A stretch of DNA of 64,000 nt from Heloderma charlesbogerti (taxonomy: Eukaryota; Chordata; Lepidosauria; Squamata; Helodermatidae), in contig JANEZZ010002705.1 of NCBI GenBank assembly GCA_026122225.1, positions 1,261,932 to 1,325,931 of the forward strand. Direction: 5' to 3'. The translations under genes were made by a program, and so were the position numbers. Below are positions 1 through 44,346 of the stretch, in pieces. Numbering within the stretch: the stretch's first letter is position 1; each line of letters begins with the position of its first letter. The notes below the pieces were generated by a model. That model saw only the letters and a program-made list of their open reading frames with translations. It searched no databases and was not told where the DNA came from.

Positions 1-246
1 TTTTTTCCCCTCTACGTTTTTGGGTTTTTTTTAAACCGCACAGCAAAGTGAAGGCATTTTCAAGACAATAAAAAGAGGTCCTGGAGTTGGGAAAGTTCTC
101 CCTGCTGGCTTCATCTGTGGGGCAGGCTTGCTTATCCAAAAAGGAGCCCCATCCTCAACACGAATATTGGAATAGTAACCCACTGTGCTAGCAATTTCAA
201 GCGGAATAAGGTCAGCAAACATAAGTAAGGGAAGATCAGTTAAGTC

Positions 247-392
247 CGCCTTCCTCAACCTGGGGCTCGCCATATGTGTTGGACTTCAACTCCCATCATC
301 CCGAACTGCCATTACCATTTGCCATGTTAGCTGGGAATGATGGAGAGTTGTAGTCCAACACAACAGGGGGGTGACAGGTTGCGGGAGGCTGA
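247..392. mobile_element. Palindromic hAT-like MITE, about 146 bp
   Basis: The two halves are imperfect reverse complements: CCTTCCTCAACCTGG at the left, TTGGACTTCAACTCCCATCA in the middle, and the inverse at the right. The flanks carry an 8-bp duplication with one mismatch, GTTAAGTC (239-246) and GTCAAGTC (393-400). It belongs to the same family as 9029-9164 and 58970-59105. An 8-bp duplication fits hAT-type transposition. Confidence 0.7.
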
Positions 393-507
393 GTCAAGTC
401 ATGGTTGCTGCGGTCCTGGACCCACTTTCTTAGAAGCAAGGTCCCAGTAAGCTCAATGGGACTTACTTCTGAGTAGACATGTACAGGACTGTACTGTGAG
501 CTAAGTA

Positions 508-600
508 CACAGGAAGCTTATACTGAGTCAGACCACTGGACCATCTAACTCGGTATTGTTGACATTGACTGGCACCAGCTCACCAGAGTTTCAGGAAAGA
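508..600 (-). mobile_element. tRNA-derived SINE, 3' part only
   Basis: The reverse strand carries the SINE body seen at 9705-9885: a 'GTCAACAATACCGAGTTAGA' block followed by 'CTGACTCAGTATAAGCTTCC'. The tRNA-like head is missing, so the copy is 5' truncated. The stretch just before it (about 430-505) has another dispersed block, AGTAAGCTCAATGGGACTTA, whose family I cannot name. Confidence 0.6.
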
Positions 601-604
601 GTTT

Positions 605-960
605 AATGGGGTTGACCATCAACAAAACACTTCCAATGTTTTTTTAAAGCATAAACGTACAATAAAAACAAAACCAAATAAACAGCAGCAGAATAAATCA
701 GCAAACACGCACCAAAACAGAAAGCACCCTATGGAAAGGTGTGTGCATCTAAACAAAATGGATGTTGTTCTGCTACTGAAAAGTGGACAGACCGAGAGAA
801 AGGTGGCCAGAGAGAGAGAAAGTCAAGCTGCTCTCCTGGGGCAGAGAGTTCTACAGCCTGGGTGCCACCACTGAAAAGGCTCTTTTCCATGTCTTTCCAG
901 CTACACCTCAGACAACAATGGAACATGGAGCAGAGCCTCCTCTGAAGACTGAAGTGTGCA
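605..960 (-). mobile_element. L2 LINE 3' fragment
   Basis: On the minus strand a frame resembling the L2 C-terminal motif 'AFSVVAPRLWNSLP' can be followed with a stop in it. It is followed by a T-rich 3' untranslated tail. The copy is old and 5' truncated. Confidence 0.6.
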
Positions 961-1514
961 GGCACATTCATTCCTGTTTCTAGGTAAGCATGATGGTCAA
1001 AACATAAGCTAACCTTGTGAGCTGGGATAAGCCAAACAAAATAAAAAAGTAATGCTCAGATTAAGTTTTACATGAATCTCTTACTATGTACTAACAAACC
1101 TAGACATTTTGGTCTTTAAAGAGAGAGCAACGAGGGTGAGAGTTATCACCTCTTCGTTTTGTTATGATTTTAAATCCAGGGAGAGGAGGGGAGTCAATAA
1201 AACCTAAAGTTATCACTAATCCCCATGACAGAACCAGACTGCCTACACTCTCTCGGATGAACTGGTAAAAGACATTCCTTAGGAACATTTCTTGCCCTCA
1301 ACCAATGCTTTCCAAGCTTCAATCCCAGTTTGGACGTACATTTCCCAGCTTTCTAAATCACAGTTTAGCAACTCAGAATCACAGTTGAGAGAGCATGCTC
1401 CCACCTCACCTCTCCCCTTGCCACCTTTCTTCACACATCACCTTATGTAACATGGAGTTGTAGTTTAACAACAGGATCGTGAACCATGGTTTGAACTCCT
1501 AACAACTGAACTCA
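961..1514. other. No recognisable feature
   Basis: I see no repeat family, structured RNA or convincing exon here. The mirrored stretch is 42833-43386. Confidence 0.5.
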
Positions 1515-1740
1515 TAGGCCACATTCAGGGTGACTAGCTCTGATGGCTATGTGCTACCTCCAGTATCAGAGGCAGTAAGGCTATGTATACCAGTTGCTGG
1601 GGAACATGGGTGGAGAGTGCTGTTGCACTCATGTCCTACTTGTGAGTTTCCCACAGGCAGCTGGTTAGCCACTATGTGAACAGAATGCTGGATCAGATGG
1701 ACCCTTTGTCTGATCCAGCATGGTTCCTCTTCTAGGACTT
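1515..1740 (+). mobile_element. CR1-type LINE 3' end (TTCTTATG-tail group)
   Basis: It shares the blocks 'CCTCCAGTATCAGAGGCAGT', 'GCTGGGGAACATGGG', 'TGTGAACAGAATGCTGGA' and 'GATCCAGCATGG' with 11598-11990 and 47981-48412. It is a 5'-truncated copy with only untranslated sequence. Confidence 0.7.
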
Positions 1741-1772
1741 CATTACCCAGTCAGCCACTTCTTGTTGCATAA

Positions 1773-2056
1773 GTCATAGAATCATAGAATAGTAGGGTTG
1801 GAAGGGGCCTACAAGGCCATCGAGTCCAACCCCCTGCTCAATGCAGGAATCCAAGTCAGAGCATCCCTGACAGGTGGCTGTCCAGCCTCATCTTGAATGC
1901 CTCCAGTGTGGGAGAGCCCACCACCTCCCCAGGTAATTGGTTCCATTGTCGTATTGCTCTTACAGTCAGGAAGTTTTCCCTGATGTTCAGCTGGAAAAGT
2001 CGGTGGCCAGTAGAGGTGTAGTCACTCCTGTGGCCCTGAACAGCTAGCGCCACTGG
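1773..2056 (-). mobile_element. CR1 LINE 3' end (ATTCTATG tail)
   Basis: On the minus strand the fragment encodes the CR1 C-terminus 'AIRQWNQLPGEVVGSPTLEA' with the usual stop after 'SHLSGML'. It then has the untranslated tail 'GGACTCGATGGCCTTGTAGG' and two ATTCTATG octamers. The 5' side is truncated at about 2056. Confidence 0.9.
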
Positions 2057-2249
2057 ACCCCTCAGCTCCTGGAGCTCCCATGTACCATCTCAGATTCTGA
2101 CACTGCCGTAGAGTCCTGCGAATTCAATCCATCTCCACAGGCCTCTCTTGCAGCCATAAATGGAGATGTAAACACTGTTTGATACACCGCGAGTCAATTA
2201 TCATGCAGGGCTCGTGCAACACCTAAGGGAATCCAGTCTCCATTGGGGC

Positions 2250-2440
2250 AGAAGAACAGAAAAAGAGCCCTGCTGGATCGGATCAAAGAACCATGCAATC
2301 CAACATCCTGCTTCCCAGAGTGGCTAACCAATGCTTGGGGGAGGGCTGCAAGCAGGTTATAAAGGCCTCAGAGGACCTCAGTGGGAGCTACTTCCTGGCA
2401 ACTGCCCAGTATCAGCAAGGGAAAAGTGCTTCCCTCATGG
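2250..2440 (-). mobile_element. CR1-type LINE 3' end, diverged
   Basis: The plus strand shows 'AGAGCCCTGCTGGATCGGAT' and 'CCAACATCCTGCTTCCCAGA', the reverse complement of the TTCTTATG-tail CR1 group. The octamer tail is reduced to 'AGAACAGAAAA'. Confidence 0.6.
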
Positions 2441-2619
2441 GCTGAGTTCCAGCGACGAAAGGAAGCAAGGCTGCCTGAATAATCCTGGTTCTTGTACAGA
2501 AACCCGTGTAATTTTGCTTCCTGTACTACATTCCTGTACATTTGAGTGTGATTTGCTTTCAGAGGCTCATGGTGCTAGAACATGGATGAGGAACGTGAGG
2601 TGCATCAGATGCTGCTGGA

Positions 2620-2705
2620 CTGTTAACTCCCAGCATTCTTCAATCTAGGCTGTGCTGGCTAGGGCTGATGGGAGCTGCCATCCAACAACATCTGGAGGGT
2701 GATCC
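2620..2705. mobile_element. Remnant of a palindromic MITE
   Basis: The core 'TTAACTCCCAGCATTCTTCA' and the later 'GGGCTGATGGGAGCTGCCAT' with 'CAACATCTGGAGGGTGATCC' match the inner and right half of the 136-bp MITE family. No target duplication is visible. Confidence 0.5.
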
Positions 2706-3412
2706 ATGCTTTGATAACCTCGTGTCTGGATTGCTGCAATGTGTCATGGGGGCTGCCTTTGAAAACGGTCCAGAAACTTCAGCAGCTCCAAAACAGGGCA
2801 GCAACATGGTTAACGGGAGCTAGCTAATGTGATCAGATTATGCCAGTACTTTTCCATCTGCACTGGCTGCCAGTCCATGTCCAGGCCCAATTTAAAGCAC
2901 TGATATTAAAGTTCAAGCCCCAAATGGCTTGGGGCCAGGTTACCTGAAGGATCATCTCCTGCCATATATATCTGCCCAGACCCTAAGATCAGCAGTCCTT
3001 CTCCAGGAGCCCCCGCCAAATGAAGCGAGGTGAATAGCCGCTAAGAACAGGGCCTTTTCTGTTGTGGCACCCCAGTTGTGGAATGAGCTTCCCAGACAGG
3101 CTCGCCTGGCGCCTACGTTGTACTCTTTTTGGAGCCAGGTGAAGACCTTTCTTTTCTTTTCTTTTTAATTTTCCCAGGCATTTTAATCTTTCAGTTTCTG
3201 TTTTAAATCTGGCACTATATTTTAAATCTTTGTATTGCTTCTAGGTTTTATTTTGGTTTTTATTTTTATTTTATACTGTAGTTTCTAAACTTTTACACTA
3301 TATTTTATCATCTTGTATTTTATGGTTTTAATTGCTATGAACCACCCAGAGAGCTCTGTCTATTGGGCAGTATAGAAATGTAATAAACAAACAGATAAAC
3401 AAACAAATAAAT
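2706..3412 (+). mobile_element. L2 LINE 3' end with AT-rich tail
   Basis: Frame fragments match the conserved L2 C-terminal stretch: 'LDCCNVSW', then 'LQQLQNRAAT', 'HLHWLPVHVQAQFKALILKF', 'KNRAFSVVAPQLWNELP' and the end 'EDLSFL'. It has several breaks. The untranslated tail reads through 'ATGAACCACCCAGAGAGCTC' to 'GGGCAGTATAGAAATGTAAT' and ends in an AAACA/AAATA-rich stretch. The tail motif recurs at 4155, 5853, 10270, 14020 and 16828. Confidence 0.85.
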
Positions 3413-3842
3413 AAGTTCCCCATCTCTGGACTAGAAAGCAGGATGGAAGTATTCTAAATAAATAAAATCAAATAAATAAAGGCACCTAGCAATTGGTGCT
3501 CAGTGGCATAGTGCCTCTGAACATGCCATCATGGCTGCTAGACATTGGTAGACAAGTCCTCTACTTAATCTGTTTACCCCCACACACCTTAAAACTATAT
3601 CAGCTAGTGTCCATTACCACATTCTTGTGGCAGAGAATTCAGCCCATTAATTATGTCGCTGTACAAATAAGTTATCTCTTTTTGCCTGCCCACTGCTGAT
3701 CAGTTCTATTAGGTAGCCCTGAGTGTTATGTGAAAGGGACAAGAAAAGGGAAAAATGCTATTGAATTTCTCCATACTTTGCATAGTTTTATAAATGTCCA
3801 TCATGCCACCTTCTTAGGGAGAAATGTTATATTAATTGTGTA
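3413..3842. other. No recognisable feature
   Basis: Apart from an A/T-rich AAATAAA stretch around 3455-3480 I recognise nothing. The mirrored stretch is 40505-40934. Confidence 0.5.
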
Positions 3843-4056
3843 GCGTGTAGTTGAGGCTTACCTCTAGCTCTCTTTTTTTTACTCTAGAGTAAATGTGCAT
3901 AGCCCCAATTCAGATTGGAACCATGCCACCACTGTTTGCTTCCCAAAAATCCCCCCCCCAAATGTGCAGGGGGGGGTTGAAAAAAGAGAAAAACTCTCCA
4001 TTGGTGTCAATAGAGGCCATTCTCTCTCTTTCTTTAAGCCTTAATGACACACTACG
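3843..4056. mobile_element. Putative small foldback element
   Basis: The ends are roughly inverted: AGCGTGTAGTTGAGGCTTA at the left and AAGCCTTAATGACACACTAC at the right. The interior has a T-run, 'AGTAAATGTGCATAGCCCCA', C9 and G8 runs, and 'CTCCATTGGTGTCAATAGAG'. The same interior layout appears at 12380-12600 (inverted) and 18533-18715, so this looks like an interspersed family. I cannot name it. Confidence 0.4.
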
Positions 4057-4154
4057 CAATTTACGTAATGTGTAGTTTGTCCCTCAGTTGTCTTTTTTCA
4101 AAACTAAAACTCCAAGGCGTTTAATGGCATATGATGGGGCATTTATGCGTGCTG

Positions 4155-4302
4155 TCTGAAGAGGTCTCATATTTTACTGAAATTGCTTTTAGCAATTTAA
4201 ATTATTTTTCAATTTGGTATATTTAGTTTTTTATGCTGTACTTTATCTTGGAAATTGTTGTGAAGTGCTCAGAGAGGTTTGGCTATTGGGTGGTATAGAA
4301 AT
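4155..4302 (+). mobile_element. L2 LINE 3' tail
   Basis: A T-rich stretch leads into 'CTCAGAGAGGTTTGGCTATT' and 'GGGTGGTATAGAAATGG', the same L2 terminus as at 3345-3385. The microsatellite begins exactly at the A-rich end. Confidence 0.7.
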
Positions 4303-4382
4303 GGAAGGAAGGAAGGAAGGAAGGAAGGAAGGAAGGAAGGAAGGAAGGAAGGAAGGCAGGCAGGCAGGCAGGCAGGCAGGCA
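4303..4382 (+). repeat. Compound microsatellite (GGAA)n then (GGCA)n
   Basis: About 13 GGAA units are followed by about 7 GGCA units with a sharp switch near 4356. It directly abuts an L2 3' tail, so the tail probably seeded it. Confidence 0.95.
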
Positions 4383-5852
4383 TGGGGGACATGCCCCAAC
4401 TCCTTTGATCATTTTAGCTGTCCCTTCCTGTACCTTTTCCAGCTCTTACGACAGCCTTTTTTTCCCCAGGTGCGGATGACCTGAACTGTAGAGACTCAAG
4501 CTCTATGCTGGTGGTTCAGAGCCTGACAGGATCAGAGGCTTCCCTCCAGAAACAGACAGTGGCAATGTTCCAAGTTGCACGGAGCCTCGGCCCTTTAATC
4601 TCCACAGCCTAACACTCCTCAAACATTTCTCTCCATGTGCATAATGTTAAGATAAACCCAGGAAACAAGGCTGGCAACAGCCAGGAAAAACAGCCACCAT
4701 TGTGCACAAAAAAAGAACGGGGCACAGTCGAGGGAACTGGCCCCTCTCTGTGGTGGGCTTCGTGGGGCAGATATTACATGTGAAAGGAAAGGAAAACTGG
4801 CAAGGCCTCCCTTGATTTATTTGCACTGAAACATTGGTGCCATTGTGCTGGGTCGTGAGGAGACACAAGCAAAGAACACTAAGCCATCTATTACCCTGTT
4901 CCTTGTGTCCCAATTCCTTCCGTTTTTCTTTCTCTTTTTTTAAGGCACCAAGAAAGCCGCTGGCACGACACCAGACACAACATTTATGGCAGTTCGCTTT
5001 AAAGTCTCAAAAACGGACACCATTCAAAACATTCTCTGTCTGAGGGGCGGGGATAGAGTCTTCTCAGAGGATGGTACCCAGTTGGGTTGGGTTTTCACAG
5101 GGGCGTTTGCTTGGAAATGGCCCTGCATGAAAATAATGCCCCCTTTTAATAATAAAAAAGGACACTTCAGAGAGAAGAGAAAGGACGCCGTCATGTGCTA
5201 CTAGTGTGAAGAGACAACATGGGTAGGAAGTGGCTGCAGGGCCAGGCCTCTGGACGACAATATGGCTCCCCCATCCCTGCCATCCACATGGCACCATCCA
5301 CATGCAGGAGGGAGGTATCAACAGGCTTGGAAGAACCCAAGGGTTTGCAGAAGAACAAAAATATTTAGGAAAAAAAACCTCAAGGTCAAGGGGAGGGACC
5401 ACACAAAAAAGCTCTCAATGGGGACTGAGCAGGCTCAGTGGGCACAGAATGCCGAGTGACTGTTGGTGGAACTACCCAGAAAATCGGGGGAGAGAATGGA
5501 GTACCCTGAAAGAAGGCATGACTGATGGGCCGGCTGGAACACTGAACAGCAGCACTCCACACTGCAACATTTTGCTGCAGACGCTAAATGTATCTCTATC
5601 TTACAAGGGTATATAGAGGGGGGGAAAGCAATCAGTGGGGTAAACATGCCATGAAATGCAAGAGCTACAGCCTCTGACATTTCTAAGCAAAGCTCCAATA
5701 TGTATGAGGTAGGTACAGCGGCCATTTACAACAGCAGGAATTGGTGATAACACAGTTTTCCTAGCTCTGCTACTGGTCTACCATCGTGCAGTTTTATGCA
5801 CTGTTCCTATAACTTCGTTAAAGCAAATATTTTAATGTATTAAAAAGGTAGC
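4383..5852. other. About 1.5 kb without a recognised feature
   Basis: Open frames of up to 128 codons exist on both strands here. They lack recognisable domains, overlap each other and look like chance frames. I recognise no repeat family. The mirrored stretch is 38495-39964. Confidence 0.5.
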
Positions 5853-5960
5853 CGTTTATTTTATTTTTATTTATTTATTTCATTTCAATGCCACCCAATA
5901 GCCAAAGCTCTCTGGGCGGTTCACAAACGCCAAAGCAGTTGATATCCCCTGTGTCTGCTT
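5853..5960 (-). mobile_element. L2 LINE 3' tail
   Basis: The plus strand reads 'TTTCAATGCCACCCAATAGC' then 'CAAAGCTCTCTGGGCGGTTC', the reverse complement of the L2 terminus, next to an AAATA-type tail at 5853-5880. Confidence 0.75.
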
Positions 5961-6029
5961 GTAATTATGTAGGTGATCGTACATCGTTTTACTTCTGTTA
6001 ATTTAAAGTTTTGACTTTAAATATATAGA

Positions 6030-6445
6030 CATATACAGCTGCCTTAGGCTGAGTCAGACTGCTGCTCCATTTAGCCTAGTATTCTCTGCTGTGACTGCCA
6101 GCAGTTCTCCAAGATCTCCGGATGAAGCCTTTCCCAGTATTGCATCTGGAGTTTCAGGGATTGAACCCAGGACTTTCTGCATGTGCTTGGCCCAGTGGAG
6201 CCTGGTGGCTCTGATTTCGGTGGGGCTGTGAATCCATTCTGGGTTTCAGTCAGAACCAGCCAGAATGCTAAGAGCTATCCAATGTACTGAACCGAGTTTA
6301 GGGCTATGGCTCAGCACCTTGGATAGCTCCTTTGGAGTTCTGGCTGGTTCTGTCTGAAACCCAGAATGGATTCACAGCCCGACCGCAATCGGAGCCACCA
6401 GCCTCCACTGGCTCAGCCACTGAGCTGTGACCCCTTCTAAGAGCA
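6030..6445 (-). mobile_element. tRNA-derived SINE split by a MITE
   Basis: On the minus strand the tRNA-like head ('CACAGCTCAGTGGCTGAG', then 'GGTTCAATCCCTG' as B box) and the body ending 'CTGACTCAGCCTAAGGCAGC' are in order. The head is interrupted at 6193-6410 by a palindromic insertion. The SINE was therefore present first. Confidence 0.8.
6193..6410. mobile_element. Palindromic hAT-like MITE, 218 bp, inside a SINE
   Basis: It begins CAGTGGAGCCTGGTGGCTC and ends with the inverse, GGAGCCACCAGCCTCCACTG. The halves stay complementary through 'TCCATTCTGGGTTTCAG' up to a short centre near 6295-6312. The flanks GCTTGGCC (6185-6192) and GCTCAGCC (6411-6418) match at six of eight positions, consistent with an aged 8-bp target duplication. 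Confidence 0.75.
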
Positions 6446-8381: not shown

Positions 8382-9338
8382 CAGAGATGTGAAGGCCTGG
8401 GGGAAAAAACGGGAAAAATTGGGGGGAAACTTTTTTTCCCTTTTTTTTTTTGAGGACGGTTTTTGTTTTTTTACCAAAAAATTGAACAGCTTTGGATTAT
8501 GAAATATTTTCTTTTAGAATTTAAGTCAAAGTATTTATATATTGTTAACCAGCCTTTATTCCCCCCCAAAACGATTTCTAAAAACTATGTAATAAGAACA
8601 CTTTTATAGACAGACTAGAGATGTAAAATGTCTGGGAATAAGGAAGCCATGGGGTAAAATAAATTTTTAATCCTCTCTGTAAGATTCCCAGCATAGTTCG
8701 TTCGTTCATTCCTTATTAAAATTATTGATCTAAAATATATTTTACTGATAGACATTTATGCTCAGTTTCCCAACATGTGAGTAGAGTCACCACTGTGCAT
8801 TCTTGACAGTAAATGTGCATTCTTGACAGCTTGGGTTTTGTTCTATAGAGTCCTGTGTTTCGGATGCTGTAGCAGTCGTTTGATGTACCTCTAATCTATT
8901 CAGACAATAATTACAAATTTACTGAGTTTACTTTTTAAAGTTTTAAAATCTAATGATAAGTTTATGAGTAAACTAAGTCATACATAAAATAACCTTAGGA
9001 ACAGACAGGCTGCTTTATGCTCCTAAAGCAGCCCTCCCCAACCTGGTGCCCTCCAGATGTTTTGGACTGCAGTGCCCAGCATTCCTGACCATTGGCCAAG
9101 CTGCCTGAAGCTGATGGAAGCTGAAGTCCAAAATACTTGGAGGACATCAGGTTGGAGAAGGCTGTCTTAAAGCAACAAAGTGACTTTGGATCTGCAAAGT
9201 ATGCTAAAAAACCAATATTGCTTATTTTTCAATTTTTCCAAGATTTCCAGTTTTTTCACACACACATACCCCACCCCCCAAAACAACCATGTGGTTTTTT
9301 CCCCATGGGCTCAAAATTCCAGAAATTTTACATCTCTA
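8382..9338. mobile_element. hAT-like element, 957 bp, with perfect 8-bp TSD
   Basis: The ends CAGAGATGT and ACATCTCTA are inverted apart from the outermost base. The flanks are a perfect 8-bp duplication, GGTAGGGA, at 8374-8381 and 9339-9346. No transposase frame is visible, so it is non-autonomous. It contains homopolymer-rich sequence, a second internal TAGAGATGT block near 8616, and a nested palindromic MITE at 9029-9164. It sits inside an L2 copy. The only length difference I found between the palindrome arms is its G6 run (8421-8426). Confidence 0.8.
9029..9164. mobile_element. Palindromic MITE, 136 bp, nested in the hAT-like element
   Basis: It starts CAGCCCTCCCCAACCTGG and ends with the inverse, CCAGATG-type arms closing in CAGGTTGGAGAAGGCTG. 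The flanks TCCTAAAG (9021-9028) and TCTTAAAG (9165-9172) match at seven of eight positions. Length and ends equal those of the copy at 58970-59105. Confidence 0.8.
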
Positions 9339-10182: not shown

Positions 10183-10269
10183 CATTTTTGTTATTATTAC
10201 AAGAAATGACACTTCGAAACTGACCACTACACCGCTGCCAGCAGGGCTCTTCTTACGTTTATGTTCATG

Positions 10270-12202: not shown

Positions 12203-12365
12203 TAGAATCATAGAATCATAGGGCTGGAAGGGGCCTACAAGATCATCGAGTCCAACCCCCTGCTCAGTGCAGGAAGCCTGATTCCCAGGTGGTCTCCCAT
12301 CCAAGTACTAACCAGGGCTGACCCTGCTTAGTTTTCGAGATCAGACAAGATCAGGCGCATCCAGG
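12203..12365 (-). mobile_element. 5S rRNA-CR1 chimera (putative SINE3-like element)
   Basis: Read on the minus strand, about 88 bp resemble 5S rRNA from the 'CGATCTCGTCTGATCTCGGA' region to the 3' side, with A-box-like 'AACTAAGCAGGGTC' and C-box-like 'GGATGGGAGAC'. This runs directly into a CR1 3' end ('CTGAGCAGGGGGTTGGACTC', ATTCTATG octamers). A 5S head joined to a LINE tail is the design of SINE3-type elements. The first ~20 bases of 5S are missing. It could also be a one-off 5S pseudogene beside a CR1 tail. Confidence 0.7.
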
Positions 12366-12397
12366 CCACTTTTCCCCCTAAAATGTCCCACCCATAC

Positions 12398-19392: not shown

Positions 19393-21420
19393 ATAGAAGA
19401 ATCATAGAATCATAAAATTATAGAATATTAGGGTTGGAAGGGGCCTACAAGGCCATCGAGTCCAACCCCCTGCTCAATGCAGGAATCCAAGTCAGAGCAT
19501 CCCTGACAAATGGCTGTCCAGCCTCGTCTTGAAGGCCTCCAGTGTGGGAGAGCCCACCACCTCCCCAGGTAATTGGTTCCATTGTCGTATTGCTCTTATA
19601 GTCAGGACGTTTTTCCTGATGTTCAGCCGGAACCTGGCTTCCTGTAACTTGAGCCCATGATTCCGTGACCTGCACTCTGGGATGATCGAGAAGAGATCCC
19701 GGCCTTCTTCTCTGTGACAACCTTTCAAGTACTTGAAGAGTGCTATCATATCTCCCCTCAGTCTTCTCTTCTCAAGGCTAAACATGCCCAGTTCTTTCAG
19801 TCTCTCTTCATAGGGCTTTGTTTCCAGTCCCCTGATCATCTTTGTTGACCTCCTCTGAACCCTCTCCAGTCTGCATCCTTCTTAAAGTGTGGTGCCCAGA
19901 ACTGCACACAGTACTCCAGATGGGGCCTAACAGTGCTTAGTAGACAGGAACTAGTACTTCCCGGGATTTGGAAGCTATGCTTCTCTTAATGCAGCCCAAA
20001 ACAGCATTTGCCTTTTTTGCAGCCACATCACATTGTTGGCTCATATTCAGCTTGTGATCGACAACAATTCCGAGATCCTTCTCGCTTGTAGTGTGGTTGA
20101 GCCACATATCCCCCATCTTGTAACTGTGCATTTGGTTTCTTTTTCCTAGGTGCAGAATGTGGCATTTATCCCTATTAAATGTCATTCTGTTGTTTTCTGC
20201 CCAGCACTCCAGTCTATCCAGATCACTTTGAATTTTGTTTCTGTCTTCCAAAGCATTAGCTATCCCACCCAATTTTGTGTCATCTGCAAATCTGATCAGC
20301 ATTCCCTGCACCTCCTCCTCCAAGTCATTAATAAAAATCTTGAAGAGCACTGGGCCCAGGACTGAGCCCTGTGGTACCCCACTCGTTACCTCTCCCCAGT
20401 TTGAGGAGGTCCCATTGAGAAGCACTCTTTGAGTCCGATTCTGTAGCCAACTGTGGATCCACCGGATCGTTGTTTCATCTAGCCCACTTTGAGCTAGTTT
20501 GCTCATCAGGATATCATGGGCCACTTTGTCGAAAGCTTTGCTGAAGTCAAGGTATATGATGTCTACAGCATTCCCACGGTCTACAAGGGAGGTTATTTGA
20601 TCAAAAAATGAGATCAGATTTGTCTGGCAGGATTTGTTCTTGACAAATCCATGTTGGCTTCGAGTAATCACGGCATTGTTGTCAAGGTGCTTCCAGATGG
20701 ATTGCTTTATCATCTGCTCCAGAATTTTCCCAGGGATTGATGTCAGACTGCCTGGTCTGTAGTTCCCAGGTTCCTCCTTTTTACCCTTTTTGAAGATAGG
20801 GACAACATGAGCCCTCCTCCAGTCATCTGGCACTTCCCCCATCCTCCATGATTTCTCAAAGAGAATAGACAGCGGTTCTGAGAGTTCTTCTGCCAGTTCC
20901 TTTATTACTCTAGGATGCAGTTCATCTGGCCCTGGAGATTTGACCTCATTCAAAGTAATTAGGTGTTCCTTGACCATATGCCTATCAGTCTCAAGCTGCA
21001 ATCCTGCCCCTTCAGCCTGTACTTCGCCTTTGCCAGGGGGGTCATAGACCCTCTTTTGGGAGAAGAATGAGCCAAAGTAGGAATTGAGCACCTCTGCCTT
21101 TTCTTTTGTCATCTGTTATCATTTTGCCATACTTATTTAACAGCTGAACCACCATTTCTTTCCTCTGCCTTTTACTATGCACGTAGCTGAAGAAAGCCTT
21201 TTTGTTGCTTTTAGCATCCCTCGCTAACCTCAGCGCATTCTCAGCTTTAGCCTTCCTGACGCCATCCCTGCAATTCTGTGCTATCTGCCTGTACTCTTCC
21301 TTTGTTACTTGGCCTTCTTTCCACTTCCTATATGTGTCCTTTTTTGTTTTCAGGTCATCCCTATGCTTTTTTTGAAGCCACATTGACTTGCTCTTCACCA
21401 CCCCACATGTGTGGTTTTAG
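19393..21420 (-). mobile_element. CR1 LINE, 5'-truncated, about 2.0 kb
   Basis: It holds the second half of CR1 ORF2 followed by the 3' untranslated tail ('GGACTCGATGGCCTTGTAGG') and several octamers near 19400-19440. The 5' end stops in ORF2 upstream of the reverse transcriptase near 21420. This matches the usual 5' truncation of CR1. It is mirrored at 22926-24953. Confidence 0.95.
19492..21401 (-). pseudogene. CR1 ORF2 reverse transcriptase, broken in three frames
   Basis: Three overlapping or adjacent minus-strand frames make up ORF2. At 21042-21401 (119 codons) lies the linker before the polymerase, with 'KDTYRKWKEGQVTKEEYRQI'. At 19937-21112 (391 codons) lies the reverse transcriptase: 'NYRPGSLTS' near residue 118, 'LDFSKAFD' at about 188-195, 'GVPQGSVLGP' at 245-254 and 'FADDTK' at 275-280, so all three catalytic aspartates are kept. 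At 19492-19839 (115 codons) lies the C-terminus ending 'SHLSGML'. The first break is an extra A in the AAAAG run near 21105. The second is a stop or frame change near 19937. A lineage alignment would say how recently it was active. Confidence 0.93.
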
Positions 21421-21569
21421 CAGAAGGGGACTATATTTTCAATGCAGAATCTGAAAAGGCAAGCTCTCCATAGATGACCTTCTTTGGATGAAAACTGGGG
21501 GGGGGGGGATACATGGACAGGAAGCATTAGCTAGTTGTGCTTCCTGTCTTTCCATTCTGAATTATCATG

Positions 21570-21770
21570 CTGCAGCAGAGGGAGAGATGAGAACCAGAGC
21601 TTTTCCATCAGCTCTGCTGGGAGACCGGCCTTGAGCTCTCCTTCAATTATCACCGAGTAAGAACATAACAGTAGCCATTCCATTGGGCTGCAGCAGAGGG
21701 AGAGATGGGAAGTGGGGCTGACTGCATCAGCTCTACTCAGAGACCAGCTCCTGCTTCCTCTTCCTCTCCC
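21570..21770 (+). repeat. Imperfect direct duplication in the spacer
   Basis: 'GCAGCAGAGGGAGAGATG', then 'TCAGCTCTGCTGGGAGACC' near 21573-21642, reappears as 'GCAGCAGAGGGAGAGATGGG' and 'TCAGCTCTACTCAGAGACCA' near 21690-21752. The spacing is about 118 bp. Confidence 0.7.
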
Positions 21771-21839
21771 TGAACTGTTTCCATTCAAGCTGGTTGCTAG
21801 AAGAACTTTGTAACTTTAAGAACTGCTGCCTGGGTTTGC

Positions 21840-21995
21840 TGGTTTTCCTCTTCCCTCCTCATCCGTTTTCCCTTTTGTGTCATGTCTTTTAGATCATAAG
21901 CCTGAAGGCAAGGGCTAGCGTTGTCGTTTTTCCTGCTCTAGAAGCCTTTTTGGCCAAAGCGTGGGGTGAAAATGCTTTAAATAAATAAATAATCT
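21840..21995 (+). mobile_element. 3' tail of the unnamed LINE/SINE-like family
   Basis: 'TTTTAGATCATAAGCCTGAA', 'GGCAAGGGCTAGCGTTGTCG' and an AAATAAATAA end match the blocks at 14590-14752 and 61225-61425. Confidence 0.6.
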
Positions 21996-22321
21996 CCACA
22001 GTGGTTCTAAAAAGACCAAGTGTTTTGCGTATACTGTACTCTTTGTCAAAGGCAGCAGTAGCTTCTTGTTTTCTGAATGAAGAGCTTCTTCTGAAAATAA
22101 GTCCTACTTATTACACTTGCAGTGTGGCGGCGTGAAGAGCATTAAGATTCTTAACTTTCAAATAAAGAATACATTTCTCTTCAGCACGTTTTGATATTAA
22201 TGTCTTTGTGGGAGAGGGGCAGAGCTTCTACCTCAATACAGCCCTTAAAGAAGCTCTTTCTATTATTTATGTGTTCAGTTTATATCCTGCCTCCACAAAA
22301 CATACTCATAGCAATACAGCG

Positions 22322-22749
22322 AAGATGATCAGGGGACTGGAAACAAAGCCCTGTGAGGAGAGACTGAAAGAACTGGGCATGTTTAGCCTTGAGAAGACTG
22401 AGGGGAGATATGATAGCGCTCTCCAAGTACTTGAAAGGTTGTCACAGAGAGGAAGACCAGGATCTCTTCTCGATCATCCCAGAGTGCAAGACACGGAATA
22501 ATGAGCTCAAGTGACAGGAAGCCAGATTCCGGCTGAGCATCAGGAAAATCTTCCTGACTGTTAGAGCAATACGACAATGGAACCAATGACCTAGGGAGGT
22601 GGTGGGCTCTCCCACACTGGAGGCATTCAAGACGAGGCTGGACAGCCATCTGTCAGGGATGCTTTGACTTGGATTCCTGCATTTAGCAGGGAGTTGGACT
22701 CGATGGCCTTGTAGGCCCCTTCCAACCCTACTATTCTATGATTCTATGA
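22322..22749 (+). mobile_element. CR1 LINE 3' fragment in the spacer
   Basis: It starts at 'GATGATCAGGGGACTGGAAA' and runs through a broken C-terminal frame ('RGLETKPCEERLKELGMFSL') to 'GGACTCGATGGCCTTGTAGG' and two ATTCTATG octamers. 'CACAAAA' occurs shortly before the CR1 sequence (22293) and directly after it (22751). It may be a target duplication, or the edges of an interrupted repeat. This copy differs from the CR1 in the arms. Confidence 0.88.
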
Positions 22750-22925
22750 CACAAAAATTTTAGAGCGGTGCACAAACAAAACAAATGGCCCCCCTCACAA
22801 GAGAGGGGAGGGGGTAGGAATTCAAGTGGAGGATTATCCCCCCCCCCCCAGTTTTCATCCAAAGAAGGTCATCTATGGAGAGCTTGCCTTTTCAGATTCT
22901 GCATTGAAAATATAGTCCCCTTCTG

Positions 22926-24953
22926 CTAAAACCACACATGTGGGGTGGTGAAGAGCAAGTCAATGTGGCTTCAAAAAAAGCATAGGGATGACCTGAAAAC
23001 AAAAAAGGACACATATAGGAAGTGGAAAGAAGGCCAAGTAACAAAGGAAGAGTACAGGCAGATAGCACAGAATTGCAGGGATGGCGTCAGGAAGGCTAAA
23101 GCTGAGAATGCGCTGAGGTTAGCGAGGGATGCTAAAAGCAACAAAAAGGCTTTCTTCAGCTACGTGCATAGTAAAAGGCAGAGGAAAGAAATGGTGGTTC
23201 AGCTGTTAAATAAGTATGGCAAAATGATAACAGATGACAAAAGAAAAGGCAGAGGTGCTCAATTCCTACTTTGGCTCATTCTTCTCCCAAAAGAGGGTCT
23301 ATGACCCCCCTGGCAAAGGCGAAGTACAGGCTGAAGGGGCAGGATTGCAGCTTGAGACTGATAGGCATATGGTCAAGGAACACCTAATTACTTTGAATGA
23401 GGTCAAATCTCCAGGGCCAGATGAACTGCATCCTAGAGTAATAAAGGAACTGGCAGAAGAACTCTCAGAACCGCTGTCTATTCTCTTTGAGAAATCATGG
23501 AGGATGGGGGAAGTGCCAGATGACTGGAGGAGGGCTCATGTTGTCCCTATCTTCAAAAAGGGTAAAAAGGAGGAACCTGGGAACTACAGACCAGGCAGTC
23601 TGACATCAATCCCTGGGAAAATTCTGGAGCAGATGATAAAGCAATCCATCTGGAAGCACCTTGACAACAATGCCGTGATTACTCGAAGCCAACATGGATT
23701 TGTCAAGAACAAATCCTGCCAGACAAATCTGATCTCATTTTTTGATCAAATAACCTCCCTTGTAGACCGTGGGAATGCTGTAGACATCATATACCTTGAC
23801 TTCAGCAAAGCTTTCGACAAAGTGGCCCATGATATCCTGATGAGCAAACTAGCTCAAAGTGGGCTAGATGAAACAACGATCCGGTGGATCCACAGTTGGC
23901 TACAGAATCGGACTCAAAGAGTGCTTCTCAATGGGACCTCCTCAAACTGGGGAGAGGTAACGAGTGGGGTACCACAGGGCTCAGTCCTGGGCCCAGTGCT
24001 CTTCAAGATTTTTATTAATGACTTGGAGGAGGAGGTGCAGGGAATGCTGATCAGATTTGCAGATGACACAAAATTGGGTGGGATAGCTAATGCTTTGGAA
24101 GACAGAAACAAAATTCAAAGTGATCTGGATAGACTGGAGTGCTGGGCAGAAAACAACAGAATGACATTTAATAGGGATAAATGCCACATTCTGCACCTAG
24201 GAAAAAGAAACCAAATGCACAGTTACAAGATGGGGGATATGTGGCTCAACCACACTACAAGCGAGAAGGATCTCGGAATTGTTGTCGATCACAAGCTGAA
24301 TATGAGCCAACAATGTGATGTGGCTGCAAAAAAGGCAAATGCTGTTTTGGGCTGCATTAAGAGAAGCATAGCTTCCAAATCCCGGGAAGTACTAGTTCCT
24401 GTCTACTAAGCACTGTTAGGCCCCATCTGGAGTACTGTGTGCAGTTCTGGGCACCACACTTTAAGAAGGATGCAGACTGGAGAGGGTTCAGAGGAGGTCA
24501 ACAAAGATGATCAGGGGACTGGAAACAAAGCCCTATGAAGAGAGACTGAAAGAACTGGGCATGTTTAGCCTTGAGAAGAGAAGACTGAGGGGAGATATGA
24601 TAGCACTCTTCAAGTACTTGAAAGGTTGTCACAGAGAAGAAGGCCGGGATCTCTTCTCGATCATCCCAGAGTGCAGGTCACGGAATCATGGGCTCAAGTT
24701 ACAGGAAGCCAGGTTCCGGCTGAACATCAGGAAAAACGTCCTGACTATAAGAGCAATACGACAATGGAACCAATTACCTGGGGAGGTGGTGGGCTCTCCC
24801 ACACTGGAGGCCTTCAAGACGAGGCTGGACAGCCATTTGTCAGGGATGCTCTGACTTGGATTCCTGCATTGAGCAGGGGGTTGGACTCGATGGCCTTGTA
24901 GGCCCCTTCCAACCCTAATATTCTATAATTTTATGATTCTATGATTCTTCTAT
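22926..24953 (+). mobile_element. CR1 LINE, 5'-truncated (mirror copy)
   Basis: Mirror of 19393-21420. It faces its twin head to head across the spacer, with the truncated 5' ends about 1.5 kb apart. Confidence 0.95.
22945..24854 (+). pseudogene. CR1 ORF2 reverse transcriptase, broken (mirror copy)
   Basis: Three plus-strand frames (22945-23304, 23234-24409, 24507-24854) are identical in protein sequence to those at 19492-21401 and carry the same two breaks. Motifs A ('LDFSKAFD'), B ('GVPQGSVLGP') and C ('FADD') are intact in the 391-codon middle frame. The breaks therefore predate the duplication or were copied by it. Confidence 0.93.
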
Positions 24954-31948: not shown

Positions 31949-31980
31949 GTATGGGTGGGACATTTTAGGGGGAAAAGTGG

Positions 31981-32143
31981 CCTGGATGCGCCTGATCTTG
32001 TCTGATCTCGAAAACTAAGCAGGGTCAGCCCTGGTTAGTACTTGGATGGGAGACCACCTGGGAATCAGGCTTCCTGCACTGAGCAGGGGGTTGGACTCGA
32101 TGATCTTGTAGGCCCCTTCCAGCCCTATGATTCTATGATTCTA
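31981..32143 (+). mobile_element. 5S rRNA-CR1 chimera (mirror copy, plus orientation)
   Basis: Here the element reads forward. The 5S-like part is about 31981-32068 ('TGATCTTGTCTGATCTCGAA', 'AACTAAGCAGGGTC', 'TACTTGGATGGGAGACC'). It joins at 'GGGAATCAGGC' to the CR1 tail at about 32069-32143, with two ATTCTATG octamers at the end. The internal 5S promoter motifs are well kept compared with the flanks. Confidence 0.7.
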
Positions 32144-35007: not shown

Positions 35008-35965
35008 TAGAGATGTAAAATTTCTGGAATTTTGAGCCCATGGGGAAAAAACCACATGGTTGTTTTGGGGGGTGGGGTATGTGTGTGTGAAAAAACTGGA
35101 AATCTTGGAAAAATTGAAAAATAAGCAATATTGGTTTTTTAGCATACTTTGCAGATCCAAAGTCACTTTGTTGCTTTAAGACAGCCTTCTCCAACCTGAT
35201 GTCCTCCAAGTATTTTGGACTTCAGCTTCCATCAGCTTCAGGCAGCTTGGCCAATGGTCAGGAATGCTGGGCACTGCAGTCCAAAACATCTGGAGGGCAC
35301 CAGGTTGGGGAGGGCTGCTTTAGGAGCATAAAGCAGCCTGTCTGTTCCTAAGGTTATTTTATGTATGACTTAGTTTACTCATAAACTTATCATTAGATTT
35401 TAAAACTTTAAAAAGTAAACTCAGTAAATTTGTAATTATTGTCTGAATAGATTAGAGGTACATCAAACGACTGCTACAGCATCCGAAACACAGGACTCTA
35501 TAGAACAAAACCCAAGCTGTCAAGAATGCACATTTACTGTCAAGAATGCACAGTGGTGACTCTACTCACATGTTGGGAAACTGAGCATAAATGTCTATCA
35601 GTAAAATATATTTTAGATCAATAATTTTAATAAGGAATGAACGAACGAACTATGCTGGGAATCTTACAGAGAGGATTAAAAATTTATTTTACCCCATGGC
35701 TTCCTTATTCCCAGACATTTTACATCTCTAGTCTGTCTATAAAAGTGTTCTTATTACATAGTTTTTAGAAATCGTTTTGGGGGGGAATAAAGGCTGGTTA
35801 ACAATATATAAATACTTTGACTTAAATTCTAAAAGAAAATATTTCATAATCCAAAGCTGTTCAATTTTTTGGTAAAAAAACAAAAACCGTCCTCAAAAAA
35901 AAAAAGGGAAAAAAAGTTTCCCCCCCAATTTTTCCCGTTTTTTCCCCCAGGCCTTCACATCTCTG
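35008..35965. mobile_element. hAT-like element, 958 bp (mirror copy)
   Basis: Mirror of 8382-9338. It is one base longer because of the C7 run at 35920-35926, the only arm difference I found. Confidence 0.8.
35182..35317. mobile_element. Palindromic MITE, 136 bp (mirror copy)
   Basis: Mirror of 9029-9164. Confidence 0.8.
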
Positions 35966-37901: not shown

Positions 37902-38317
37902 TGCTCTTAGAAGGGGTCACAGCTCAGTGGCTGAGCCAGTGGAGGCTGGTGGCTCCGATTGCGGTCGGGCTGTGAATCCATTCTGGGTTTCAGACAGAAC
38001 CAGCCAGAACTCCAAAGGAGCTATCCAAGGTGCTGAGCCATAGCCCTAAACTCGGTTCAGTACATTGGATAGCTCTTAGCATTCTGGCTGGTTCTGACTG
38101 AAACCCAGAATGGATTCACAGCCCCACCGAAATCAGAGCCACCAGGCTCCACTGGGCCAAGCACATGCAGAAAGTCCTGGGTTCAATCCCTGAAACTCCA
38201 GATGCAATACTGGGAAAGGCTTCATCCGGAGATCTTGGAGAACTGCTGGCAGTCACAGCAGAGAATACTAGGCTAAATGGAGCAGCAGTCTGACTCAGCC
38301 TAAGGCAGCTGTATATG
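37902..38317 (+). mobile_element. tRNA-derived SINE split by a MITE (mirror copy)
   Basis: Mirror of 6030-6445. Confidence 0.8.
37937..38154. mobile_element. Palindromic hAT-like MITE, 218 bp (mirror copy)
   Basis: Mirror of 6193-6410. Confidence 0.75.
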
Positions 38318-38386
38318 TCTATATATTTAAAGTCAAAACTTTAAATTAACAGAAGTAAAACGATGTACGATCACCTACATAATTAC

Positions 38387-38494
38387 AAGCAGACACAGGG
38401 GATATCAACTGCTTTGGCGTTTGTGAACCGCCCAGAGAGCTTTGGCTATTGGGTGGCATTGAAATGAAATAAATAAATAAAAATAAAATAAACG
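38387..38494 (+). mobile_element. L2 LINE 3' tail (mirror copy)
   Basis: Mirror of 5853-5960. Confidence 0.75.
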
Positions 38495-39964
38495 GCTACC
38501 TTTTTAATACATTAAAATATTTGCTTTAACGAAGTTATAGGAACAGTGCATAAAACTGCACGATGGTAGACCAGTAGCAGAGCTAGGAAAACTGTGTTAT
38601 CACCAATTCCTGCTGTTGTAAATGGCCGCTGTACCTACCTCATACATATTGGAGCTTTGCTTAGAAATGTCAGAGGCTGTAGCTCTTGCATTTCATGGCA
38701 TGTTTACCCCACTGATTGCTTTCCCCCCCTCTATATACCCTTGTAAGATAGAGATACATTTAGCGTCTGCAGCAAAATGTTGCAGTGTGGAGTGCTGCTG
38801 TTCAGTGTTCCAGCCGGCCCATCAGTCATGCCTTCTTTCAGGGTACTCCATTCTCTCCCCCGATTTTCTGGGTAGTTCCACCAACAGTCACTCGGCATTC
38901 TGTGCCCACTGAGCCTGCTCAGTCCCCATTGAGAGCTTTTTTGTGTGGTCCCTCCCCTTGACCTTGAGGTTTTTTTTCCTAAATATTTTTGTTCTTCTGC
39001 AAACCCTTGGGTTCTTCCAAGCCTGTTGATACCTCCCTCCTGCATGTGGATGGTGCCATGTGGATGGCAGGGATGGGGGAGCCATATTGTCGTCCAGAGG
39101 CCTGGCCCTGCAGCCACTTCCTACCCATGTTGTCTCTTCACACTAGTAGCACATGACGGCGTCCTTTCTCTTCTCTCTGAAGTGTCCTTTTTTATTATTA
39201 AAAGGGGGCATTATTTTCATGCAGGGCCATTTCCAAGCAAACGCCCCTGTGAAAACCCAACCCAACTGGGTACCATCCTCTGAGAAGACTCTATCCCCGC
39301 CCCTCAGACAGAGAATGTTTTGAATGGTGTCCGTTTTTGAGACTTTAAAGCGAACTGCCATAAATGTTGTGTCTGGTGTCGTGCCAGCGGCTTTCTTGGT
39401 GCCTTAAAAAAAGAGAAAGAAAAACGGAAGGAATTGGGACACAAGGAACAGGGTAATAGATGGCTTAGTGTTCTTTGCTTGTGTCTCCTCACGACCCAGC
39501 ACAATGGCACCAATGTTTCAGTGCAAATAAATCAAGGGAGGCCTTGCCAGTTTTCCTTTCCTTTCACATGTAATATCTGCCCCACGAAGCCCACCACAGA
39601 GAGGGGCCAGTTCCCTCGACTGTGCCCCGTTCTTTTTTTGTGCACAATGGTGGCTGTTTTTCCTGGCTGTTGCCAGCCTTGTTTCCTGGGTTTATCTTAA
39701 CATTATGCACATGGAGAGAAATGTTTGAGGAGTGTTAGGCTGTGGAGATTAAAGGGCCGAGGCTCCGTGCAACTTGGAACATTGCCACTGTCTGTTTCTG
39801 GAGGGAAGCCTCTGATCCTGTCAGGCTCTGAACCACCAGCATAGAGCTTGAGTCTCTACAGTTCAGGTCATCCGCACCTGGGGAAAAAAAGGCTGTCGTA
39901 AGAGCTGGAAAAGGTACAGGAAGGGACAGCTAAAATGATCAAAGGAGTTGGGGCATGTCCCCCA

Positions 39965-40044
39965 TGCCTGCCTGCCTGCCTGCCTGCCTGCCTTCCTTCC
40001 TTCCTTCCTTCCTTCCTTCCTTCCTTCCTTCCTTCCTTCCTTCC
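39965..40044 (-). repeat. Compound microsatellite (mirror copy)
   Basis: Mirror of 4303-4382, with TGCC then TTCC units. The unit count matches the left arm. Confidence 0.95.
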
Positions 40045-40192
40045 ATTTCTATACCACCCAATAGCCAAACCTCTCTGAGCACTTCACAACAATTTCCAAG
40101 ATAAAGTACAGCATAAAAAACTAAATATACCAAATTGAAAAATAATTTAAATTGCTAAAAGCAATTTCAGTAAAATATGAGACCTCTTCAGA
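40045..40192 (-). mobile_element. L2 LINE 3' tail (mirror copy)
   Basis: Mirror of 4155-4302. Confidence 0.7.
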
Positions 40193-40290
40193 CAGCACGC
40201 ATAAATGCCCCATCATATGCCATTAAACGCCTTGGAGTTTTAGTTTTGAAAAAAGACAACTGAGGGACAAACTACACATTACGTAAATTG

Positions 40291-40504
40291 CGTAGTGTGT
40301 CATTAAGGCTTAAAGAAAGAGAGAGAATGGCCTCTATTGACACCAATGGAGAGTTTTTCTCTTTTTTCAACCCCCCCCTGCACATTTGGGGGGGGGATTT
40401 TTGGGAAGCAAACAGTGGTGGCATGGTTCCAATCTGAATTGGGGCTATGCACATTTACTCTAGAGTAAAAAAAAGAGAGCTAGAGGTAAGCCTCAACTAC
40501 ACGC
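40291..40504. mobile_element. Putative small foldback element (mirror copy)
   Basis: Mirror of 3843-4056. Confidence 0.4.
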
Positions 40505-40934
40505 TACACAATTAATATAACATTTCTCCCTAAGAAGGTGGCATGATGGACATTTATAAAACTATGCAAAGTATGGAGAAATTCAATAGCATTTTTCCCT
40601 TTTCTTGTCCCTTTCACATAACACTCAGGGCTACCTAATAGAACTGATCAGCAGTGGGCAGGCAAAAAGAGATAACTTATTTGTACAGCGACATAATTAA
40701 TGGGCTGAATTCTCTGCCACAAGAATGTGGTAATGGACACTAGCTGATATAGTTTTAAGGTGTGTGGGGGTAAACAGATTAAGTAGAGGACTTGTCTACC
40801 AATGTCTAGCAGCCATGATGGCATGTTCAGAGGCACTATGCCACTGAGCACCAATTGCTAGGTGCCTTTATTTATTTGATTTTATTTATTTAGAATACTT
40901 CCATCCTGCTTTCTAGTCCAGAGATGGGGAACTT

Positions 40935-41641
40935 ATTTATTTGTTTGTTTATCTGTTTGTTTATTACATTTCTATACTGCCCAATAGACAGAGCTCTCTG
41001 GGTGGTTCATAGCAATTAAAACCATAAAATACAAGATGATAAAATATAGTGTAAAAGTTTAGAAACTACAGTATAAAATAAAAATAAAAACCAAAATAAA
41101 ACCTAGAAGCAATACAAAGATTTAAAATATAGTGCCAGATTTAAAACAGAAACTGAAAGATTAAAATGCCTGGGAAAATTAAAAAGAAAAGAAAAGAAAG
41201 GTCTTCACCTGGCTCCAAAAAGAGTACAACGTAGGCGCCAGGCGAGCCTGTCTGGGAAGCTCATTCCACAACTGGGGTGCCACAACAGAAAAGGCCCTGT
41301 TCTTAGCGGCTATTCACCTCGCTTCATTTGGCGGGGGCTCCTGGAGAAGGACTGCTGATCTTAGGGTCTGGGCAGATATATATGGCAGGAGATGATCCTT
41401 CAGGTAACCTGGCCCCAAGCCATTTGGGGCTTGAACTTTAATATCAGTGCTTTAAATTGGGCCTGGACATGGACTGGCAGCCAGTGCAGATGGAAAAGTA
41501 CTGGCATAATCTGATCACATTAGCTAGCTCCCGTTAACCATGTTGCTGCCCTGTTTTGGAGCTGCTGAAGTTTCTGGACCGTTTTCAAAGGCAGCCCCCA
41601 TGACACATTGCAGCAATCCAGACACGAGGTTATCAAAGCAT
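40935..41641 (-). mobile_element. L2 LINE 3' end (mirror copy)
   Basis: Mirror of 2706-3412. Confidence 0.85.
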
Positions 41642-41727
41642 GGATCACCCTCCAGATGTTGTTGGATGGCAGCTCCCATCAGCCCTAGCCAGCACAGCCT
41701 AGATTGAAGAATGCTGGGAGTTAACAG
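41642..41727. mobile_element. MITE remnant (mirror copy)
   Basis: Mirror of 2620-2705. Confidence 0.5.
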
Positions 41728-41906
41728 TCCAGCAGCATCTGATGCACCTCACGTTCCTCATCCATGTTCTAGCACCATGAGCCTCTGAAAGCAAATCACA
41801 CTCAAATGTACAGGAATGTAGTACAGGAAGCAAAATTACACGGGTTTCTGTACAAGAACCAGGATTATTCAGGCAGCCTTGCTTCCTTTCGTCGCTGGAA
41901 CTCAGC

Positions 41907-42097
41907 CCATGAGGGAAGCACTTTTCCCTTGCTGATACTGGGCAGTTGCCAGGAAGTAGCTCCCACTGAGGTCCTCTGAGGCCTTTATAACCTGCTTGCA
42001 GCCCTCCCCCAAGCATTGGTTAGCCACTCTGGGAAGCAGGATGTTGGATTGCATGGTTCTTTGATCCGATCCAGCAGGGCTCTTTTTCTGTTCTTCT
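41907..42097 (+). mobile_element. CR1-type LINE 3' end, diverged (mirror copy)
   Basis: Mirror of 2250-2440. Confidence 0.6.
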
Positions 42098-42290
42098 GCC
42101 CCAATGGAGACTGGATTCCCTTAGGTGTTGCACGAGCCCTGCATGATAATTGACTCGCGGTGTATCAAACAGTGTTTACATCTCCATTTATGGCTGCAAG
42201 AGAGGCCTGTGGAGATGGATTGAATTCGCAGGACTCTACGGCAGTGTCAGAATCTGAGATGGTACATGGGAGCTCCAGGAGCTGAGGGGT

Positions 42291-42574
42291 CCAGTGGCGC
42301 TAGCTGTTCAGGGCCACAGGAGTGACTACACCTCTACTGGCCACCGACTTTTCCAGCTGAACATCAGGGAAAACTTCCTGACTGTAAGAGCAATACGACA
42401 ATGGAACCAATTACCTGGGGAGGTGGTGGGCTCTCCCACACTGGAGGCATTCAAGATGAGGCTGGACAGCCACCTGTCAGGGATGCTCTGACTTGGATTC
42501 CTGCATTGAGCAGGGGGTTGGACTCGATGGCCTTGTAGGCCCCTTCCAACCCTACTATTCTATGATTCTATGAC
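42291..42574 (+). mobile_element. CR1 LINE 3' end (mirror copy)
   Basis: Mirror of 1773-2056. Confidence 0.9.
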
Positions 42575-42606
42575 TTATGCAACAAGAAGTGGCTGACTGG
42601 GTAATG

Positions 42607-42832
42607 AAGTCCTAGAAGAGGAACCATGCTGGATCAGACAAAGGGTCCATCTGATCCAGCATTCTGTTCACATAGTGGCTAACCAGCTGCCTGTGGGAAA
42701 CTCACAAGTAGGACATGAGTGCAACAGCACTCTCCACCCATGTTCCCCAGCAACTGGTATACATAGCCTTACTGCCTCTGATACTGGAGGTAGCACATAG
42801 CCATCAGAGCTAGTCACCCTGAATGTGGCCTA
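42607..42832 (-). mobile_element. CR1-type LINE 3' end (mirror copy)
   Basis: Mirror of 1515-1740. Confidence 0.7.
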
Positions 42833-43386
42833 TGAGTTCAGTTGTTAGGAGTTCAAACCATGGTTCACGATCCTGTTGTTAAACTACAACTCCATGTTAC
42901 ATAAGGTGATGTGTGAAGAAAGGTGGCAAGGGGAGAGGTGAGGTGGGAGCATGCTCTCTCAACTGTGATTCTGAGTTGCTAAACTGTGATTTAGAAAGCT
43001 GGGAAATGTACGTCCAAACTGGGATTGAAGCTTGGAAAGCATTGGTTGAGGGCAAGAAATGTTCCTAAGGAATGTCTTTTACCAGTTCATCCGAGAGAGT
43101 GTAGGCAGTCTGGTTCTGTCATGGGGATTAGTGATAACTTTAGGTTTTATTGACTCCCCTCCTCTCCCTGGATTTAAAATCATAACAAAACGAAGAGGTG
43201 ATAACTCTCACCCTCGTTGCTCTCTCTTTAAAGACCAAAATGTCTAGGTTTGTTAGTACATAGTAAGAGATTCATGTAAAACTTAATCTGAGCATTACTT
43301 TTTTATTTTGTTTGGCTTATCCCAGCTCACAAGGTTAGCTTATGTTTTGACCATCATGCTTACCTAGAAACAGGAATGAATGTGCC

Positions 43387-43742
43387 TGCACACTTCAGTC
43401 TTCAGAGGAGGCTCTGCTCCATGTTCCATTGTTGTCTGAGGTGTAGCTGGAAAGACATGGAAAAGAGCCTTTTCAGTGGTGGCACCCAGGCTGTAGAACT
43501 CTCTGCCCCAGGAGAGCAGCTTGACTTTCTCTCTCTCTGGCCACCTTTCTCTCGGTCTGTCCACTTTTCAGTAGCAGAACAACATCCATTTTGTTTAGAT
43601 GCACACACCTTTCCATAGGGTGCTTTCTGTTTTGGTGCGTGTTTGCTGATTTATTCTGCTGCTGTTTATTTGGTTTTGTTTTTATTGTACGTTTATGCTT
43701 TAAAAAAACATTGGAAGTGTTTTGTTGATGGTCAACCCCATT
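43387..43742 (+). mobile_element. L2 LINE 3' fragment (mirror copy)
   Basis: Mirror of 605-960. Confidence 0.6.
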
Positions 43743-43746
43743 AAAC

Positions 43747-43839
43747 TCTTTCCTGAAACTCTGGTGAGCTGGTGCCAGTCAATGTCAACAATACCGAGTT
43801 AGATGGTCCAGTGGTCTGACTCAGTATAAGCTTCCTGTG
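43747..43839 (+). mobile_element. tRNA-derived SINE, 3' part (mirror copy)
   Basis: Mirror of 508-600. Confidence 0.6.
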
Positions 43840-43954
43840 TACTTAGCTCACAGTACAGTCCTGTACATGTCTACTCAGAAGTAAGTCCCATTGAGCTTAC
43901 TGGGACCTTGCTTCTAAGAAAGTGGGTCCAGGACCGCAGCAACCATGACTTGAC

Positions 43955-44100
43955 TCAGCCTCCCGCAACCTGTCACCCCCCTGTTGTGTTGGACTACAAC
44001 TCTCCATCATTCCCAGCTAACATGGCAAATGGTAATGGCAGTTCGGGATGATGGGAGTTGAAGTCCAACACATATGGCGAGCCCCAGGTTGAGGAAGGCG
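43955..44100. mobile_element. Palindromic hAT-like MITE (mirror copy)
   Basis: Mirror of 247-392. Confidence 0.7.
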
Positions 44101-44346
44101 GACTTAACTGATCTTCCCTTACTTATGTTTGCTGACCTTATTCCGCTTGAAATTGCTAGCACAGTGGGTTACTATTCCAATATTCGTGTTGAGGATGGGG
44201 CTCCTTTTTGGATAAGCAAGCCTGCCCCACAGATGAAGCCAGCAGGGAGAACTTTCCCAACTCCAGGACCTCTTTTTATTGTCTTGAAAATGCCTTCACT
44301 TTGCTGTGCGGTTTAAAAAAAACCCAAAAACGTAGAGGGGAAAAAA

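Follow-up and report, generated by a model that had tools for sequence, protein, structure and literature searches.

Positions 1–44346 of the window (the whole 64,000-nucleotide stretch of DNA that was analysed) consist of two inverted copies of some 21.5 kb around a 1323-bp spacer, and sequencing or assembly is, by a small margin, the likeliest source of the second copy (probability about 0.47, a figure that was judged and not computed). The inverted duplication itself is confirmed as present in the sequence, and it may have arisen in the animal or in the assembly.

When the window was compared with itself, a single long match in inverted orientation emerged; it is 21,512 columns in length and pairs 1–21511 with 44346–22835, with no mismatches and a single gap. 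Chance as the origin of an inverted match of this length is out of the question. The left arm (1–21511, plus strand) measures 21,511 bp as far as the window shows, and the right arm (22835–44346, minus strand), its reverse complement, measures 21,512 bp. Their sole difference is a 1-bp indel in a G run, which has six G at 8421–8426 (plus strand) and seven in the mirror at 35920–35926. The original prediction of near-identical arms of about 21.5 kb with a 1323-bp spacer was borne out by this comparison (0 substitutions, one 1-bp indel). The same prediction placed a junction near 44346, which the alignment does not support: base 1 pairs with base 44346, the partner of 44347 is the base preceding the window, and the stop at 44346 is forced by the window because the alignment ends at window base 1. 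The position is the mirror of the window edge and evidence of nothing. The outer end of the right arm is thus fixed by that edge only, and 21.5 kb has to be read as a lower bound on the length of the arms, except in the case that a contig ends at base 1. With the arm-to-arm match set aside, blastn (E 1e-6, low-complexity filter on) found no within-window repeat that crosses 44346, 21511/21512 or 22834/22835 by 15 bases on both sides. No two tandem TTAGGG or CCCTAA units occur anywhere in the window, and telomere healing at base 1 was rejected on this ground.

The absence of substitutions over 21,511 bp sets a 95% upper bound of 1.4e-4 on arm divergence. All five microsatellites of at least 6 units are identical between the arms, including the adjoining (GGAA)13 and (GGCA)7 tracts at 4303–4380 (plus strand; mirror 39967–40044), as are 24 of 25 homopolymers (A/T of at least 8, G/C of at least 6). 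Because substitutions are absent and these repeats agree, the copies stem from one molecule, either during library preparation or assembly or, as a very rough figure, no more than 0.1 million years ago, or else they are undergoing homogenisation. A recent inverted duplication, a conversion-maintained palindrome and a fold-back artefact had been proposed as the alternatives beforehand, and we judged this the right set. A head-to-head join of two alleles was rejected, as heterozygous differences would be expected and none of the 21.5 kb is substituted.

Under the artefactual origin that we slightly favour, reads or a path through the assembly graph would have turned back near the run of 12 G at 21497–21508 (plus strand), which stops three bases short of the arm's inner edge and is of equal length in both arms. 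A single stretch of the genome would then have been entered two times, once in each orientation, on the two sides of 1.3 kb of single-copy sequence; base 1 would lie at or near a contig end, and both arms would have been built from the same reads. The arms being alike in every substitutable position, in their microsatellites and in all homopolymers except the one that carries the indel argues for this origin. Homopolymer indels are the usual residual consensus error. An arm that reaches base 1 exactly fits a fold-back at a contig end, and a palindrome of any origin, once truncated by the window, would look no different. Human HiFi assemblies are reported to break preferentially at the longest and most identical segmental duplications (PMC10234299); even if a contig did end at base 1, this would be no proof of an artefact, because real near-identical segmental duplications tend to end contigs. 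Inverted chimeras are common in long reads, and in nanopore ligation data inverted repeats were reported in 0.18% to 7.33% of reads (PMC13141652). Against an artefact, a read that simply turned back, whether at a missed adapter or by going on into the second strand, should leave almost no spacer, where here there are 1323 bp, and for a single chimeric read 21.5 kb would be a long tail.

A remnant of an adapter at the turning point, of the PacBio missed-adapter type, was considered and rejected. Neither SMRTbell nor ONT adapter letters gave a standout match: the best was 14/45 in the 1.55 kb around the spacer, compared with 13/45 in the 300 bp around 44346 and 12/45 at bases 1–300, the stretches being of unequal length and scored with no shuffles. 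Among the literature matches listed for fold-back duplications at contig ends, nothing was directly on topic.

A serious competitor, which we hold to be somewhat less probable than the artefact, is a real and very recent inverted duplication, without function, young and perhaps polymorphic. A broken end or stalled fork would have folded onto itself, started synthesis from its own strand at a distance of 1.3 kb and gone on copying for 21.5 kb or more, the loop becoming the single-copy spacer. The divergence bound suits such an event, as it corresponds to an age under about 35,000 to 140,000 years without gene conversion, at assumed substitution rates of 2e-9 to 0.5e-9 per site per year. A 1.3-kb spacer also fits a fold-back event better than a simply turned-back read. 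The spacer (21512–22834) occurs once in the window, so that single-copy sequence separates the inverted copies there, and the order of arm, short single-copy spacer and arm is the anatomy of human fold-back inverted duplications (PMC3907307). All 21 of the sequenced human junctions described in that study have a single-copy spacer, of 766–70,466 bp with a median of 3,428 bp, a range that includes 1323 bp. Inverted microhomology of 2–8 bp was reported at 13 human junctions (PMC3907307); here such microhomology would be absorbed into the arms, and the spacer ends carry no longer inverted homology. In comparisons of the terminal 50, 150, 300 and 650 bp, the observed score was reached by 68, 84, 66 and 32 of 100 shuffles per length, respectively, which places it no higher than shuffled sequence. 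It would take the ancestral sequence to separate such microhomology from the arms and to tell the new inner junction from the old. Counting against a real duplication, perfect identity over such a length is, to our knowledge, rare among real palindromes, at 21.5 kb as here.

Besides a few short diverged repeats, the spacer holds the 3′ end of a CR1 LINE (22322–22749, plus strand), 92% identical to copies in the arms, with 12 further CR1-type matches elsewhere in the window; we take the LINE of the arms to be CR1. The arm element is a fragment with a reverse transcriptase frame (19405–21389, minus strand; mirror 22957–24941). Inverted CR1 copies lie near the centre, at 19405–20606 and 22322–22749. 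A fold-back mediated by CR1 was nevertheless rejected as the breakpoint, since the arms extend to 21511, beyond the repeat, and the arm edges do not coincide with repeat edges. Under a looser threshold the spacer also contained a diverged repeat, 62 bp long, and had three short matches around 47.2 and 61.2 kb. One stretch of it, 21849–21917, matches the right flank at 61235–61303 (69 bp, 80%), with weak matches adjoining, and is perhaps an old unnamed repeat.

Arms of this size and identity had further been described as typical of sex-chromosome palindromes maintained by gene conversion, as well as of very recent inverted duplications. In size this description fits, and the arms and spacer fall within the definition of large ape palindromes, namely inverted repeats of at least 8 kb and at least 98% identity with a spacer of up to 500 kb, to which a further filter of less than 80% repetitive content is applied (PMC11168930). 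In identity the arms stand above published primate values. Human P6 arms are 99.97% identical (PMC3723533), a level at which 6.5 differences would be expected here and 0 or 1 would be seen with P = 0.012; at the median of 99.953% for conserved primate X palindromes (PMC8981503), 10.1 would be expected (P = 0.0005). Because of this excess over primate palindromes, identity alone would speak less for a typical old palindrome than for an artefact or a very recent event, and gene conversion may still have acted.

Base composition bears on the same question. GC content was 44.3% in the arm, 45.7% in the spacer (P = 0.32) and 46.1% in the right flank (P = 0.0003), and no rise in the arms over spacer or right flank was found. 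The CpG observed/expected ratio of the arm was 0.26, as in vertebrate DNA. GC is often higher in arms than in spacers of ape palindromes (PMC11168930) and often raised in the arms of primate X palindromes (PMC8981503). Among human Y palindromes the rise is described for P3 and P6 and not for P4, P5, P7 or P8 (2/6), which makes it frequent and not obligatory (PMC3723533). We counted its absence for an artefact as against a long-converted palindrome.

A palindrome on a W or Y chromosome, homogenised by gene conversion, is an improbable source of the arms. It would agree with the ape definition, and gene conversion within the W has been inferred for one squamate, the prairie rattlesnake (PMC9447483). 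Against it stand the identity, above what is typical by the two probabilities given, the lack of a GC rise, and the lack of gene copies by Pfam, whereas many primate palindromes carry genes. Among the matches listed in a search for lizard palindromes, no squamate paper was found by title; of two snake W papers, PMC9447483 mentions palindromes once, in the title of a reference, and PMC7692289 contains no mention. More doubtful still is a squamate palindrome without detected genes, possibly sex-chromosomal, in which arms of at least 21.5 kb would be homogenised faster than primate ones, so that even microsatellites stay identical. If it were true, palindromes could persist without selection on gene copies.

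The claim that the arms hold no genes stands at the level of Pfam families; other types of gene lie outside the reach of the scan. Read-through translation in six frames of the left arm and spacer (1–22835) yielded RVT_1, the LINE reverse transcriptase, as the sole Pfam family at E ≤ 0.01, in 1 of 12 sequences, a scan that would miss small exons, non-coding genes and families outside Pfam. When ten single frames were scanned, RVT_1 appeared in three, two of which narrowly missed the curated cut-off, and two weaker families fell well short of theirs. The longest reading frame of the arm, 19937–21115 (minus strand), encodes a reverse transcriptase (RVT_1 at 2.8e-34). When its product was compared with proteins, at least 7982 of at least 7987 scored candidates passed. 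Bird and turtle entries head the matches listed by E-value, and the highest identities among the 120 matches listed belong to lizards: Anolis carolinensis at 70% over 83% of the query, Podarcis muralis at 69% over 90% and 68% over 99%, and Salvator merianae at 66% over 99%. Other lizard entries among those listed range down to 59%, and turtle and bird entries lie at 45–65%. From these identities the host is probably a squamate reptile, though of a species other than those three.

ARAGORN found no tRNA or tmRNA in the window. Rfam gave one match per arm, to 5S rRNA, within a SINE-like unit at 12203–12382 (minus strand; mirror 31964–32143, plus strand). The 5S-like head (RF00001, 57.2 bits) is directly joined to a CR1-type 3′ tail (88% over 76 bp) that ends in two terminal ATGATTCT units, and the whole looks like a 5S-derived SINE using the CR1 machinery.

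In the right flank (44301–64000), Pfam read-through identified RVT_1 in 2 of 12 sequences, along with weak matches to zf-C2H2_assoc (0.0016) and DUF6822 (0.0018) in one each. A 72-bp tandem repeat at 44960–45272 runs to 4.4 copies, with open frames through both strands. The 278 bp at 56752–57029 form a near-perfect hairpin whose self-complementarity is 97% and whose centre carries short CAAGGATC repeats; it may be a fold-back element. A LINE-tail tandem array at 59438–60736 comprises three head-to-tail units of a 435-bp CR1 3′ end that match at 94%.

Whichever reading holds, the kind is already known, and none of the three describes a new kind of thing. If the second arm is an artefact, it illustrates how a locus can take on the look of a bounded 44-kb palindrome where a contig or a window stops, and the structure is not a feature of the animal. 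If the animal does carry it, the palindrome is large and young, has no detected genes and would be of use in studying how such structures begin, ahead of any selection or conversion.

Primate X and Y palindromes (PMC11168930, PMC8981503, PMC3723533) resemble the structure in arm size and spacer, as far as those sources describe them; the arms here are more identical, hold no genes by Pfam and show no GC rise. Fold-back duplications with a disomic spacer (PMC3907307) likewise consist of two inverted copies with a short spacer between them, single-copy and about 1 kb long, as here. The cases in that report were recognised by comparison with a normal chromosome, and a telomere or a translocation may form their end, whereas here there is no reference, the window lacks tandem telomere repeats and the outer end is out of view. 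From the palindromic, inverted chimeric long reads and assemblies described in PMC6218980 and PMC13141652, the closest counterparts of the artefactual origin that we slightly favour, the locus differs in its 1.3-kb spacer, the lack of an adapter trace and one difference over 21.5 kb; what it has in common with them is a pair of near-perfect mirror copies.
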